The notes beneath the pieces were generated by a model. That model was not told the origin of the DNA. It made no database searches and saw nothing but the letters and a program-made list of their open reading frames with translations. Made by a program: the position numbers and the translations under genes. Of a stretch of DNA of 64,000 nt, positions 3,243 to 33,015 are shown in pieces. Source of the DNA: an uncultured Bacteroidales bacterium (GTDB taxonomy: Bacteria > Bacteroidota > Bacteroidia > Bacteroidales > UBA932). The stretch is taken from the NCBI GenBank assembly GCA_944323445.1, contig CALUSM010000008.1, forward strand, positions 1 to 64,000. Reading direction: 5' to 3'. How positions within the stretch are numbered: position 1 is the stretch's first letter; the number at the start of each line of letters is the position of its first letter.

Positions 3243-3426
3243 CACGATGCTTTCTAGTTGCAACGCAATCTGCTTTAAATGAAGCAATTAAGCAATTAAC
3301 AAAATCCAAAAATTCAACGTCAGGCGAAAATAGGCTTTTTCGTCGAAAAATGCTTGACCTGCGAAATCCGCAAAATGGTAAATAATTGGATATTAGCAAC
3401 TTTTAACGCAACTAAAAAGCATCGTG
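3243..3426. mobile_element. Orphan palindrome-bordered element (RAYT-type, no transposase)
   Basis: A 184-bp non-coding unit bordered by CACGATGCTTTCTAGTTG (3243-3260) and CAACTAAAAAGCATCGTG (3409-3426), inverted copies matching at 17 of 18 bases. Length, terminal CAC and the shared TTTTAGTTG core match the elements that flank both RAYT-like genes in this window, but the bases between CAC and that core differ. No transposase gene is next to it, so it would have to be moved in trans. Confidence 0.65.
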
Positions 3427-18253: not shown

Positions 18254-20344
18254 ATGAGAGAACAGCAACAGCGTGCGATACCTCAGGGAAATGAGCTGCA
18301 GGCACAGCCGATACAAAGCGAAAACCAGCTGAAATCCGACGGCAAGGCTCACGGCAGCCACATCTGTCACCCCCATGAAGACACAGAAGGGCACAACAAC
18401 CACGAGCACAAGCACAAGCACGAGCATCACCGCCACGCCCACAGCAGCACGAAGCGGCAGATAACCCTCATCGCCGTCACAGCCGTCCTGCTCGCCGCAG
18501 CCGTCCTCATCGAGAGATACTGCGCCCTGCAGACCTGGCAGCTGCTCCTAGTCTACCTCGTCCCCTACCTACTCATCGGCACCGGCACCCTGAAAGAAGC
18601 GGCAGAAGGCATTGCCAGCGGGAATATCTTCAACGAGCACTTCCTCATGTCCCTGGCCACCATCGGTGCCCTCTGCATCGGCTTCCTGCCCGGAGCGGAG
18701 ACCGAATTCCCGGAAGCGGTCTTCGTCATGCTGTTCTTCGCAGTGGGCGAACTGTTCGAGAGTTACGCCGAGGGCCGGAGCCGCGACAGCATCTCGCACC
18801 TGATGGAAATCCGCCCGGACACAGCCGAGGTGGAGCGCGGCGGGCAGACCCGGACCGTCACTCCCGAAGAGGTCAGCATCGGAGAGGTCATCGTAGTCCG
18901 GCCCGGCGGGAAAATACCCCTCGACGGCACCGTCATCGAAGGCTCCTCCTCCCTCAACACCGTGGCCCTCACCGGCGAGAGCCTGCCCCGGGATGTCGAA
19001 AAAGGCGACGACGTGGCCTCCGGCTGCATCAACCTCTCCGGTGTCCTCCGCATCAGGACTACGAAAACCTTCGGCGAGAGCACCGTCTCGAAGATCATCC
19101 GGCTCGTGGAAAACGCCGACTCCCGCAAGTCCCGCAGCGAATCCTTCATCACCCGCTTCGCCCGCATCTACACCCCGATTGTGGTCTCCGCCGCCCTCCT
19201 GCTGGCATTCGTACCGCCGCTGCTGTCCGGAAACGGCTTCTCCGGCTTCTCAGCCTCCTTCGCCACCTGGCTCCACCGCGCCCTCATTTTCCTGGTGGTA
19301 TCCTGCCCCTGCGCCCTGGTAATCAGCGTTCCCCTCACCTTCTTCGGCGGTCTGGGCGGCGCCTCCCGCAGAGGCATCCTCATCAAAGGCAGCAGCTTCA
19401 TGGACTCCCTGGCAAATGTAGGGACAGTGGTATTCGACAAGACCGGCACCCTCACCCGAGGAGAATTCGCAGTGGAGGCCGTGCATCCGGAAAATCTCAC
19501 GGAGCACGAGCTCCTGCATCTGGCCGCCCACGTGGAGCATTTCTCCACCCATCCGATAGGCGAGGCCCTCAGGGCGGCATTCCCCAACGAGGCGACCGAC
19601 GGCTGCTCAGTCACGGACGTGGAGGAAATCGCCGGTCAGGGCATCAGGGCCAATGTGGAAGGCCGCACGGTCTGCGTAGGCAACGCCAGGATGATGGAGG
19701 CTGTCGGAGCGGCATGGCACGACTGTCACCGCACCGGCACCATCATCCACGTAGCGGTGGAGGGACAATACGCCGGGCACATCGTCATCAATGACAGGGT
19801 GAAGGAGGACAGCGCGGAGGCAATAGCGGCCCTCCGGCGGCTCGGGGTCGGAGATACCGTCATGCTGACCGGGGACAGGGAGGAAACGGCCCGCGACGTG
19901 GCCTCCAGGCTCGGAATCGGCTCCTACCGCGCCGGCCTGCTGCCAGCCGACAAGGTCCGGTGCCTGGAAGAACTGCTGGCCGCCAAGCCCCGCGGGACCA
20001 GCCTCGCCTTCGTCGGGGACGGCATCAACGACGCCCCGGTACTAAAGCGGGCCGATGTGGGCATCGCCATGGGCGGACTCGGCAGCGACGCCGCCATAGA
20101 GGCCGCCGACGTGGTGCTGATGGACGACCGTCCCACCAAGATCGCAACGGCCGTCTCCACCTCCCGCCGCACCCTCCGCATCGCCCGCCAGAACGTCTGG
20201 CTGGCCATCGGCATCAAGGCCGCCATCCTGCTCCTCGCAGCCATCGGCCTCGGCACTCTGTGGCTCGCCGTCTTCGCCGACGTCGGCGTCACCGTCCTGG
20301 CCGTCCTCAACGCCATGCGGGCCCTCCGCGTCCCGACACACTGA
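18254..20344 (+). CDS. zntA: Zinc/cadmium/lead-type P1B ATPase
   Basis: 696 residues. The first 75 residues are polar and His-rich (HEHKHKHEHHRHAHSS), a cytosolic metal-binding tail in place of the usual ferredoxin-like domain. Transport motif CPC is at 351-353, the phosphorylated Asp is D395 in DKTGTLTRGE, the nucleotide domain has TGDREETARDVA, and the hinge is VGDGINDAPVL. Near the C-terminus LAVFADVGVTVLAVLNAMR carries the Asp typical of the Zn/Cd/Pb (P1B-2) subgroup. The enzyme exports divalent soft metals across the inner membrane at the cost of ATP. It follows a Fur-family regulator. The 3' end runs into a degenerate tandem repeat. Confidence 0.93.
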   Translation: MREQQQRAIPQGNELQAQPIQSENQLKSDGKAHGSHICHPHEDTEGHNNHEHKHKHEHHRHAHSSTKRQITLIAVTAVLLAAAVLIERYCALQTWQLLLVYLVPYLLIGTGTLKEAAEGIASGNIFNEHFLMSLATIGALCIGFLPGAETEFPEAVFVMLFFAVGELFESYAEGRSRDSISHLMEIRPDTAEVERGGQTRTVTPEEVSIGEVIVVRPGGKIPLDGTVIEGSSSLNTVALTGESLPRDVEKGDDVASGCINLSGVLRIRTTKTFGESTVSKIIRLVENADSRKSRSESFITRFARIYTPIVVSAALLLAFVPPLLSGNGFSGFSASFATWLHRALIFLVVSCPCALVISVPLTFFGGLGGASRRGILIKGSSFMDSLANVGTVVFDKTGTLTRGEFAVEAVHPENLTEHELLHLAAHVEHFSTHPIGEALRAAFPNEATDGCSVTDVEEIAGQGIRANVEGRTVCVGNARMMEAVGAAWHDCHRTGTIIHVAVEGQYAGHIVINDRVKEDSAEAIAALRRLGVGDTVMLTGDREETARDVASRLGIGSYRAGLLPADKVRCLEELLAAKPRGTSLAFVGDGINDAPVLKRADVGIAMGGLGSDAAIEAADVVLMDDRPTKIATAVSTSRRTLRIARQNVWLAIGIKAAILLLAAIGLGTLWLAVFADVGVTVLAVLNAMRALRVPTH

Positions 20345-20472
20345 CAGACCGGCACTGTACTCCGCATCCCGGCATACCGACAGACCGGCGCAGCACTCAA
20401 CGTCCAGGCACACCGACGGACCTACGCAGTTCCAACGTCCCGACACACCGATGGACCAGCGCAGCACCTCGC
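20331..20472. repeat. Four degenerate 35-36-bp tandem repeats
   Basis: Units start at about 20331, 20367, 20403 and 20438, each near TCCCGACACACCGACGGACC. The first begins inside the last codons of the P-type ATPase gene and the last ends 37 bp before the left RAYT element. Confidence 0.7.
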
Positions 20473-20508: not shown

Positions 20509-20695
20509 ATTGTCACTATACATTTTCGTCATATTGTACATCCCTGTCTATCAGCCTTTTGCCAACATTCCAAAATGTTAGAACACCCCCAAATAGCCCA
20601 TTTAACCCGAATTTTTCCCCTTCTAACATTTTCTCATTTTCTCAAATTCCTAAATATCAACCACATTCATTTCAACTAAAATGTAAAGTGACAAT
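20509..20695. mobile_element. Palindrome-bordered element, left flank of RAYT-like gene 1
   Basis: 187-bp non-coding unit. The left border ATTGTCACTATACATTTT (from 20509) is the imperfect inverse of AAAATGTAAAGTGACAAT (ending 20695). An internal AACATT/AATGTT hairpin and a second TTCTAACATTTT copy give nested symmetry. It is paired with a similar element at 21869-22053 on the other side of the transposase gene. Confidence 0.75.
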
Positions 20696-21669: not shown

Positions 21670-22217
21670 TTTCGCCAGCAGCCCGCACACACGGTATCTA
21701 TAGCATCTCCACACTCGCAGCACCATCAGCATCATTGCCGGCTTTGCAAATGACATCTCCGTCGACATCACGTCTGGCAACACTAGGCATCTCCCAAGCG
21801 CGACACCACATCTGGCAAGGCGCTCAAGACACGACATGACATCAAGGCCTTCAGCTCCTAAACACCTTATTGTCACTATACATTTTAGTCATGCACTAAA
21901 CCACACATTTTCCAGCTATTAGCATTTTCAGAAAATGTTAGAAGAGCCAAAATACAGCATTTCGGGCAGGATTTGACCCCTTCTTACATTTCTCGATTTA
22001 TGGAAAATCAAGGGAATCAAGCATTTGAAACACAACTAAAATGTATAGTGGCAGTCACGTAGCGGCAGTCGAGCCAATGGAGACGTCTACACCGATAGAA
22101 ACGTTCATACCTACATAGACCGGAATGGTTCTGATGCGTCGGAAGCGGGTTCTCTGCGTACTGCAAATAGAGACGGTTCTGCAGAGAATGGAAGGAGTAT
22201 CGGAAACGCAGCCCGTA
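21670..22217. other. Non-coding DNA around the right RAYT 1 element
   Basis: Besides the palindromic element at 21869-22053, the 548-bp gap holds low-complexity, CA-rich sequence (21690-21860) and about 160 bp before the GH20 stop with no gene or terminator that I can see. Confidence 0.5.
21869..22053. mobile_element. Palindrome-bordered element, right flank of RAYT-like gene 1
   Basis: 185 bp. ATTGTCACTATACATTTTAG (from 21869) and CTAAAATGTATAGTGGCA (ending 22053) share a perfect 16-bp inverted core, CACTATACATTTTAGT. Interior blocks AAAATGTTAGAA and CCCCTTCT match the left element in the same orientation, so the two elements appear as direct copies. Confidence 0.8.
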
Positions 22218-31107: not shown

Positions 31108-31589
31108 CACCGGAGCAGCACCGCACGACCTACACCACGACCGGGGTCACCGTCCGGCGCTGCATGGCTTTCCTGCATTGCAGCATTACAGCATGGCCCT
31201 CAAGGCCCTTCAAGGCCCCTAATGATGGATGTCCCAATTCCACGTTGCTTTTTAGTTACATCGTACATTCTTGATTACAAAGCATTTACTATTTTGCAAG
31301 AATTTTAAGTGAGCCGTTTTTTGCCCTAAACCGCCCCTTTTCACCTCATGTAGAATTTTTGCATTATTGCAACATCTTAATTTTAAGCAATTTGCATTTC
31401 AACTAAAAGGTAACGTGAAGTTTAGCCTCCCTTTGCCTCCTTTTCTCCGTCTTTCCTTTCCTCACCCGTCACTTACTTCCAAGTATTCCCAACCTTATTT
31501 TGCCACTGCGGTAAATTAATTTACCCCGCCTCTTGATTATCTCGGATTGATTTCCGTAATTCGCAGCACAAACATCAAAATGAAGCAGT
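31108..31589. other. Non-coding region before RAYT-like gene 2
   Basis: 482 bp. Apart from the palindromic element at 31241-31417 it holds CT-rich and AT-rich sequence. No gene or obvious terminator for feoAB was seen. Confidence 0.5.
31241..31417. mobile_element. Palindrome-bordered element, left flank of RAYT-like gene 2
   Basis: 177 bp. CACGTTGCTTTTTAGTT (from 31241) and AACTAAAAGGTAACGTG (ending 31417) are imperfect inverses. Interior blocks TTGATTA, TTAAGTG and GTTTTTTGCCC occur in the reverse complement of the right element, so the pair is in inverted orientation. Confidence 0.75.
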
Positions 31590-32540
31590 ATGAAAGAGGC
31601 GAGCGAAAAGATGTACCATCTGGTCCTGTCTTCCGGTACTCCGGATGTGATATGCAGGGACGATCATGACTACACGGCATTGGAGAACAGCATTGCGTTG
31701 ACCGTTCTCAAGACATGCATAACATTGCTGGCCTACGCGGTAATGTCCACACACTGCCACATCGCGCTGGTCTGCACCTGTCCCGATGACTTTATCAAGA
31801 TTCTCAAGATCACTTACACCAAGCATTTCAACTCGAAATACAGACGCCGAGGTATCCTGTTCGAAAACGATACATATTGCCGGCCTGTAACGGGATACCT
31901 CCGCCAGCGTGTACTTCTCAGCTACATTCTACGGAATCCTGTCCACCATGGAGTTGCTGAAACCGCCTTCAGATACCCGCACTCCTCTATCGCCTCATAC
32001 TTCAGAGACGGAGACAATGGAATTCTGCTGCCTGGAATCAGCAACTCCTGCTCAGGACACGGCAGGCTCAAAATAAAGAAAGGCACCGGATACGTCTACT
32101 ACGACCTGGATGAAAACGGCAGGATACCGCTCAGATATTTCGTCAATGCAGGAAGGACTGAGTATCTGTATAGGACGGAGAGAAGTTTCATTCATCAGCT
32201 GAACCGCTGGAACACTGAGGATTGGGAACGCGAACAGATAAAGAAGTACCCTCAGGGCGAGATTATCACCCTGACAGAAGCCGAGCCCGGCTTCGAGTCT
32301 GAAATCGAGGATATGAGAGCCTATGAAAGAGGAGCCTGGCGGCTGCGTATCACCGACATGGAAGTGTGCGGATATATAGACCGCGTCCTGCTTCCGGAAA
32401 TAGGCATACCGTCCTACACAATGCTTGACTCCGGACAACTGCCGTCAGTAATAAATGCAGTGCAGCGGAAATTCCATGTACGGGACGAGCAGATACTGCG
32501 CTGCCTCGGACTGCATGCTATGCCCAACGTCATCCGCTGA
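31590..32540 (+). CDS. RAYT-like (REP-associated, Y1 HUH) tyrosine transposase 2
   Basis: 316 residues, a close paralogue of the gene at 20752. HUH motif H55-C-H57 (VMSTHCHIAL), probable nucleophile Tyr112 (LLSYILRNPVHHG), shared DTYC, GYLRQR and AETAFRYPHSSI blocks. The C-terminal extension with GRIPLRYFVNAGRTEYLYRTERSF is also shared. The flanking palindromes (CACGTTGCTTTTTAGTTG) differ from those of copy 1 in the stem, as if each enzyme had its own recognition sequence. The frame is intact, so it may be active. Confidence 0.85.
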   Translation: MKEASEKMYHLVLSSGTPDVICRDDHDYTALENSIALTVLKTCITLLAYAVMSTHCHIALVCTCPDDFIKILKITYTKHFNSKYRRRGILFENDTYCRPVTGYLRQRVLLSYILRNPVHHGVAETAFRYPHSSIASYFRDGDNGILLPGISNSCSGHGRLKIKKGTGYVYYDLDENGRIPLRYFVNAGRTEYLYRTERSFIHQLNRWNTEDWEREQIKKYPQGEIITLTEAEPGFESEIEDMRAYERGAWRLRITDMEVCGYIDRVLLPEIGIPSYTMLDSGQLPSVINAVQRKFHVRDEQILRCLGLHAMPNVIR

Positions 32541-32707
32541 CCCGATGGCACTACAGCTCCATGTCAGGAGGGGCCGGAAAACCCGCTGCCCATCAGGCTT
32601 CTCTCTCAGCGTCCATGCTCAGCAACACATCTCAGCCACCATTGCGCCGGCTCATCAGCAACCATCGGCCGGCCATTCTCTTCTGTCACCCTTGCACCAA
32701 CCATTCC

Positions 32708-32884
32708 CACGTTGCTTTTTAGTTGCGACACAACTTGCTCTTACTATGAGATTTAGCAAATAAAAGACTTTTTAAATGGCGCTAAAATAAGCGATTTTGG
32801 GCAAAAAACAGGACACTTAACAAATCGCCTCTTTTAGATATTGCTGATAATCAAACATATACATCACAACTAAAAAGCAACGTG
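32708..32884. mobile_element. Palindrome-bordered element, right flank of RAYT-like gene 2
   Basis: 177 bp, the same length as the left element. Its borders CACGTTGCTTTTTAGTTG (32708-32725) and CAACTAAAAAGCAACGTG (32867-32884) are a perfect 18-bp inverted repeat. The interior is AT-rich with GGGCAAAAAAC, the inverse of the left element's GTTTTTTGCCC. Confidence 0.85.
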
Positions 32885-33015
32885 AGAATAAGCGCACGGG
32901 GAAGGGAGAGGGGGGCAGAAGAATCGAGAAGGTGGAGCAAGGGGAGTCAGGGCCCTGAACTCCCGAATACCTACAATGTGGGAAGGCCGGTAAGGCAAAT
33001 ACCTACTTATGAGGA

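Follow-up and report, generated by a model that had tools for sequence, protein, structure and literature searches.

RAYT-like transposase genes between near-fixed-length 177-bp palindromic elements in a Bacteroidales genome

Gene 2, its protein and its flanking elements

The window, meaning the whole stretch of 64,000 nucleotides analysed here, holds two RAYT-like genes, each standing between two 177-bp elements, and one orphan element (Table 1). The genome, an assembly of 59 contigs, probably belongs to the genus Candidatus Coprenecus of the Rikenellaceae. A sequence-only reading of this DNA had placed the gene at 31590, here gene 2, between two 177-bp elements, and both elements are indeed there. 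The terminal repeat of the right one is CACGTTGCTTTTTAGTTG, and the inner end of the left one reads CACGTTACCTTTTAGTTG. The two are 49% identical when compared directly and 60% when one is inverted; they are not copies of each other. Gene 1 shares this layout, with element ends that are mostly CACTATAC. The different border claimed earlier for the gene-1 elements holds for three of their four ends, which are of the TATAC type (one with TTTTCGT), and not for the fourth, which is CACTTTACATTTTAGT.

With one mismatch allowed, the border CACNNNNCNTTTTAGT has 10 matches in the window, as compared with 0.55 ± 0.72 (maximum 3) in 100 shuffles; eight of these matches are the ends of the four RAYT-flanking elements and two are the ends of the 184-bp orphan. 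The four flanking elements are A+T rich, with a G+C content of 0.33–0.35 versus 0.54 for the window. No target duplication was seen by eye in the flanks of the element ends, and no Rfam family was found in the window at gathering thresholds. Gene 2 has feoB on one side and a hemerythrin-domain gene on the other. Degenerate tandem repeats of 9–10 or 35–36 bp adjoin several RAYT units outside the elements (window 20329–20467 and 31195–31218; L039:2539–2664; L040:639–766), and positions 1–1240 of the window hold 108-bp tandem repeats in 11.4 copies (TRF), with a period that is a multiple of three.

Table 1. Features of the two RAYT loci and the orphan element (positions within the window)
Feature	Position	Strand	Remarks
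Orphan element, 184 bp, GATGC (CACGATGC) type	3243..3426	.	No RAYT adjoining
Left gene-1 element, 177 bp, TATAC/TTTAC ends	20514..20690	.	Terminal inverted repeat 14/18
Gene 1, RAYT paralogue, 305 aa	20752..21669	+	57–58% identical to gene 2
Right gene-1 element, 177 bp, TATAC type	21874..22050	.	Terminal inverted repeat 16/18
Whole gene-2 unit	31114..32964	.	Absent between feoB and hemerythrin-domain gene in relatives; extends beyond elements by 127 bp (left) and 80 bp (right)
Left gene-2 element, 177 bp, GTTGC type	31241..31417	.	Terminal inverted repeat 15/18
Left element unit 1, ~71 nt, outer and inner site	31241..31311	+	Putative unit
Left element unit 2, inverted orientation	31347..31417	-	Putative unit; 35-bp spacer 31312–31346
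Gene 2, RAYT/TnpAREP-like HUH-Y1 transposase, 316 aa	31590..32540	+	H55-x-H57, Y112xxxN116-P, C-terminal extension ~180 aa
Right gene-2 element, 177 bp, GTTGC type	32708..32884	.	Terminal inverted repeat 18/18; inverted in place in G141
Right element unit 1	32708..32778	+	Putative unit; spacer 32779–32813
Right element unit 2, inverted orientation	32814..32884	-	Putative unit

Matches of gene 2 to family models lie under their thresholds, at 19 versus 23 bits for Pfam Y1_Tnp (gathering score) and 27.9 versus 80 bits for NCBIfam REP_Tyr_transpos (E 1.7e-6). When a profile of 28 relatives was compared with PDB sequences, the sole match was 4er8, a structure of TnpAREP in complex with a REP hairpin (E 1.4e-4). 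The AlphaFold2 model of gene 2 (mean pLDDT 87.8) also had 4er8 as its top PDB match in Foldseek (E 9.7e-6), followed by ISDra2 and IS608 TnpA. These structural matches span roughly 100–140 columns; the C-terminal extension (about residues 135–316) lies outside them, and residues 140–155 are modelled poorly. H55, H57, Y112 and N116 are unchanged in 28/28 aligned proteins and P117 is kept in at least 90%. The earlier view that gene 2 is RAYT-like and a paralogue of gene 1 is supported.

Gene 2 thus shows the HUH motif, the single catalytic Tyr and the Y---NP signature of the RAYT/TnpAREP group, and its sequence and fold are nearest to TnpAREP, with the NCBIfam match under cut-off. It is further flanked by palindromic elements that have dispersed copies, it has a low copy number (one per genome), and it has an element family of its own, judged on the 30/40 labelled RAYTs described below. 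It is predicted to be an HUH one-tyrosine endonuclease and strand transferase for single-stranded DNA, placed within the IS200/IS605 superfamily on the TnpAREP branch. The gene family and the architecture of the locus are directly established; the RAYT presumably binds and cleaves the elements, and particular bases in them presumably set its specificity. We consider it very probable that gene 2 is a single-copy RAYT of the TnpAREP branch, that the 177-bp elements and their dispersed copies are its REPIN/BIME-like substrates, and that the motif is kept within each labelled clade.

Architecture of the 177-bp element

The exact element pattern matches 10 elements in the window's genome and is present in 12/19 genus genomes. 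It was found in none of the other 180 of the 199 sampled family genomes, and a reversed control pattern gave 0 matches. Among 76 distinct elements from the fetched loci, 65 are 177 bp and eight are 176 bp long, with one each of 175, 178 and 184 bp. Because the search pattern allows spans of 157–187 bp only, the length peak was rechecked with a span of 30–600 bp, within the fetched loci (those found by the pattern or by a RAYT). The clustering, register, covariation, dyad and outer-inner pairing analyses cover the 65 elements of exactly 177 bp and leave out the other 11.

These 65 elements form 16 clusters when compared in one orientation and 12 when both orientations are compared. Over all pairs, the identity of the interior is 0.52 in register versus 0.23–0.32 when one element is slid by 1–5 bases, and mean identity between clusters in the same orientation ranges from 0.35 to 0.64. 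With clusters equally weighted and both strands pooled, the signal common to the elements is dyad-symmetric: CACgtTgCtTTTTAGTT, A25, T32, TCAG near 38–41, TT at 46–47, aaaaTtttA..atG at 59–71 and GGC near 83–85. The complementarity of the outer ends (1–13) to positions 59–71 is the top one among 50 end positions. At position 71 it reaches, out of 13, 6.6 for G-type and 8.4 for T-type elements (means 3.3 and 3.8), which allows a reading of the element as a pair of ~71-nt units in inverted orientation on either side of ~35 bp. We infer from this pattern that the 177-bp element may consist of two such units and a spacer. Against this reading, the G-type outer ends match T-type inner sites (7.19/13) slightly more closely than those of the G-type (6.56/13).

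Elements of relatives, which have a similar plan with units of mostly 67–73 nt, support it. By RAYT L039, four 73-nt units and one of 87 nt are delimited by CATCCTAACAT sites, with spacers of 33–34 bp; L040 has four 67-nt units between GTCCAGCA sites, its spacers measuring 48 and 38 bp; at L038, a single 69-nt unit is delimited by CACTAAAC sites, and no inner site was found for the second unit.

Folding is good for whole elements (z −2.7 to −5.9, four elements) and weak for the 71-nt halves (z −2.7 to +0.6, 12 halves), which also counts against the two-unit reading. The stem spans the 177 bp, and the outer-inner pairing competes with it. Half-elements as stable DNA hairpins were rejected on the weak folding of the 12 halves, and a hairpin at positions 29–43 (TGA..TCA motif) was rejected as no covariation within halves was seen. 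Just outside CAC, 113/150 ends have a T and 37/150 a C; the foot is therefore mostly GTGA (113/150), with GTGG in 37/150, and GT[AG]G, canonical for REPs, is not the rule. Neither is the short hairpin of 20–40 nt that is canonical for REPs, since units are ~71 nt, elements 177 bp and the halves fold weakly. The near-fixed 177-bp element with four sites is new here.

Several features lie close to the elements. A GGTATCTTTGCGGATAATC-like stretch, promoter-like for Bacteroidetes, is found within 120 bp of 29/76 elements; it lies close to the elements in L010–L012 (near 1501–1677), and at L004:1469–2165 it opposes its reverse complement, the pair spanning 697 bp. In L011, a 173-bp TAAAC element stands 113 bp from a 177-bp element. 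Contigs of relatives end less than about 1 kb from an element in L093, L105, L109, L110, L118, L119, L121, L124 and L126, as if repeats around the elements broke the assemblies.

Element types and RAYT clades

RAYT-like genes were found in 16/19 genus genomes (E 1e-4), and elements stand on both flanks at 6/6 gene-2 and 4/4 gene-1 orthologue loci of the genus. A tree was built of 40 distinct RAYT genes (tblastn hits of at least 800 nt), which were labelled with the border or inner motif of their elements. An automatic scan gave the motifs GTTGC, TATAC, CATCCTAACAT, GTCCAGCA, GAGAGTGTACC, CCACAACGGCA and GGTTCACCTGC; the labels CACCTTCGG, AGGTGCCG and TAAAC were assigned manually, AGGTGCCG being an 8-mer that is weak in L070 and L080. 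The ten labels, which cover 30 of the 40 RAYTs, require nine changes on the tree, and this is the minimum; the mean after shuffling is 21.2 and 0/200 shuffles were as low. The ten RAYTs with no recognised motif stand outside this count. Six labels have four to six rows each, and each of these lies on one side of a branch with support of 100/99 or better; the other four have one row each. The earlier expectation that motif types would track transposase clades, as opposed to a random distribution, was borne out.

Each labelled RAYT clade therefore keeps its own element family, an association that is directly established, and enzyme and element thus diverge together. The co-evolution proposed from the sequence stands to this extent, one element type per labelled clade. 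However, the loci within a label are mostly orthologues that have stayed linked, so that linkage alone yields much of the association, and what they display is a stable pairing, not repeated co-evolution. The long-element subfamily comprises five RAYT clades. At the more distant RAYTs L016, L018, L019, L067 and L082, arrays of short hairpins with a spacing of ~84–118 bp and a clade-specific motif flank the gene. A RAYT-like clade of seven (L017, L060, L061, L062, L071, L077 and L079) has the motif SNHYH in 7/7, and the motif scan of its loci gave no recognised flanking palindrome.

By eye, the likeness of motifs drops with protein distance. Genes 1 and 2 (57–58% identity) share CAC....C.TTTTAGT, a relative at 46–47% shares CAC....C....TAGT, and relatives at 41–43% share little. 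TTTTAGT had been supposed to be constant, but it fails in the sister family CACTAAACnnnnTAGT, whose elements are mostly 173 bp among the matches listed. Within positions 4–9, 0.91 of the cells agree within elements versus 0.65 between clusters. End-to-end agreement at positions 4, 5, 7 and 9 is 1.00, 0.79, 0.80 and 0.87, respectively, versus 0.44–0.51 between clusters. With two exceptions among 152 ends, position 9 is T or C where position 4 is G, and A where position 4 is T. Such agreement in the variable core is consistent with a need for matching ends, a code, or both.

Dispersed elements fit their RAYT loosely. Among the matches listed, GTTGC/GATGC elements away from a RAYT occur in 5/6 genomes with gene 2 and 4/13 without (one-sided p 0.05), and T-type elements in 3/4 genomes with gene 1 and 3/15 without (one-sided p 0.07), while the crossed controls gave p 0.25 and 0.26. 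The counts were made by hand on non-independent genomes, TAAAC elements left out.

The proposed mid-stem specificity code is not supported in the form put forward: the association is due mostly to inherited linkage, matching orphans are present in some genomes that lack the RAYT, and the supposedly constant TTTT varies in a sister family. It is quite possible, though we lean somewhat the other way, that no such code exists: element types would drift by family and be passed on together with the RAYT to which they are linked, the enzyme reading the constant parts (CAC, C8 and TTTTAGT) and the fold. The flanking gene-1 and gene-2 cases are orthologous loci, as this reading would have it, and it is also favoured by the orphans without a matching RAYT and by hybrid-ended elements, in which GTTGCT is combined with TATGCT or TTTACT (2/76). 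On the other hand, positions 4, 5, 7 and 9 agree far more between the two ends of one element than between clusters, and the ten labels each lie on one side of a branch or have a single row. Moreover, the genus genomes are 81–99% complete, and therefore a RAYT may be present but unseen in genomes counted as lacking it.

Site occupancy, inversion and comparison with known systems

Presence and absence of units at orthologous sites is directly established. The gene-2 site is occupied in six genomes and empty in G159, G131, G167, G098, G062 and G197, while G075 has one element and no RAYT there; the counts leave out six other genus genomes unresolved at the site and G191, because its two neighbour genes stand apart. 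G159, G131 and G167 have one common empty junction (CCGG|CA|GAATACC), and G098, G062 and G197 are empty near it. Between G159 and the window, feoB is 93% and the hemerythrin-domain gene 96% identical.

One possible interpretation is that the whole 1.85-kb gene-2 unit is mobile in the manner of an IS, the 177-bp elements being its subterminal ends, and we regard this as rather unlikely. The common junction and the six occupied genomes speak for it, and so does the tree of feoB (3′ half) and the hemerythrin-domain gene, where occupied G087 groups with empty G131 and G167 (99/98) and the occupied state takes three changes, two of them forced by the starred branches. The rayt dS to the window is 0.03–0.12, compared with 0.14–0.76 for feoB and 0.06–0.49 for the hemerythrin-domain gene, and it is below both in 5/5 pairs, suggesting exchange. 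However, 52/500 shuffles need as few changes, so the site states are barely more clustered on that tree than random ones; for gene 1 the dS pattern recurs in only 1/3 pairs; and each genome has a single gene-2 copy. The junctions lie 127 and 80 bp beyond the elements, and the elements of G087 are 86–87% identical to those of the window although its rayt is 95% identical; this difference speaks against the unit having been transferred as a whole in recent times. The pattern is accounted for equally well by loss or by homologous recombination that exchanged the DNA.

Other sites vary too. At the gene-1 site, G159, G109, G141, G087, G098 and G062 are empty, and G120, G046, G131, G167 and G197 have other DNA. 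In L145, L146 and L147, this DNA is ~235–262 bp with ACCATAAAGCAC/GTGCTTTATGGT inverted repeats seen by eye, perhaps another element family; in L143 and L144, it includes ORFs, a pair encoding 235 and 238 aa in G120 and one of 383 aa in G046 whose start looks lipoprotein-like by eye. An orphan at G000:C52 is common to G120 and G141, and its site is empty in G159, G109, G131, G087, G185, G167, G046 and G062; G075 has a 127-bp TATAC-type element there.

Among 90 element pairs with at least one matching flank, 85 have the same orientation and five do not. All five involve the right gene-2 element of G141 (L023:1148–1324; G141:C80:2358–2534) and therefore represent one event. This element is inverted relative to the window's genome, G109, G120, G046 and G087, with flanks unchanged, and either it flipped in place or the assembly is wrong. 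Many Bacteroidales use inverted-repeat DNA switches, and the inversion in place with flanks kept would suit the notion that the elements are invertible switches flipped by a recombinase, with the RAYT a bystander. We think this very unlikely, as only one element accounts for the discordant pairs, many copies lie at scattered places with no RAYT nearby, and every labelled motif follows a RAYT clade.

For the RAYT and its substrates, IS608 and E. coli TnpAREP suggest a course of events. The element would become single-stranded at the replication fork and fold; a RAYT dimer would bind the folded ends; Y112 would cut at the foot of the element; and strand transfer would move or re-ligate it. A bolder reading, which we offer tentatively and hold to be rather improbable, is that the substrate is a length-locked, dyad-symmetric 177-bp element acting as one folded assembly, that cores and enzymes diversify pairwise, that elements can flip in place, and that RAYT units enter and leave sites. 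In detail, it would involve two inverted ~71-nt units with four related sites and diversification within one genus. If true, whole RAYT units would enter and leave fixed sites between species, in contrast to the statement, considered below, on the lack of evidence for tnpAREP mobility.

The RAYT–element pairing is real, and its general type is already published (PMC2817692, PMC6006769, PMC8266576). In the available text of these papers, RAYTs and their flanking REPs coevolve with trees of like topology (PMC2817692), each TnpAREP has its own REP family (PMC6006769), and SELEX with E. coli TnpAREP and co-evolution of two groups are reported (PMC8266576). As there described, the REPtrons of E. 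coli, Stenotrophomonas and Pseudomonas (PMC2817692, PMC8266576) resemble the gene-2 system in their HUH-Y1 protein, low copy number, flanking inverted palindromes, dispersed copies, one family per enzyme and paired inverted units. They differ in that REPs are 20–40 bp whereas the element here is near-fixed at 177 bp, in that GT[AG]G is their usual guide, and in that the proteins here have 305–316 aa with a long C-terminal extension.

TIRtrons (TIRYT), in the part of PMC3733652 available, may be a comparable arrangement: there, long inverted repeats that are not akin to GTAG REPs enclose a RAYT-like gene, in some cases with repeated families, and one genome can have two types; going by that description, the present system differs in that each flanking element has its own inverted repeat, a near-fixed length and an inner site pair, and in that it is found in Bacteroidales. 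TnpAY1 subclass 2.6, as outlined in the accessible text of PMC6006769, is also from Bacteroidetes, with atypical non-GTAG structures beside the gene and copies elsewhere. However, its median length is 179 aa with NH[LIV]H and YIH[QN]NP, whereas gene 2 has 316 aa with THCH and YILRNP and so falls outside the subclass as judged on published motifs and length. IS200/IS605 elements (IS608, ISDra2) share the fold of the catalytic domain, and no target duplication was seen by eye here; they have one left and one right end, whereas gene 2 has whole elements on both sides, one copy per genome and the Y...NP signature. Among the matches listed from open-licence papers, none dealt with 177-bp elements or Coprenecus RAYTs.

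A gut Bacteroidales genome thus holds several old transposase genes for single-stranded DNA, most of them bracketed by a palindrome type of their own. The presence and absence of whole RAYT units between relatives bears on the statement, as printed in the available text of PMC8266576, that evidence for mobility of tnpAREP is lacking. Most worth following are the four-site element of near-fixed length and the presence or absence of units at one site. The genus offers ten RAYT–motif pairs, and genes 1 and 2 are close enough for swaps on the same scaffold, so that how RAYTs choose and move their elements becomes testable.
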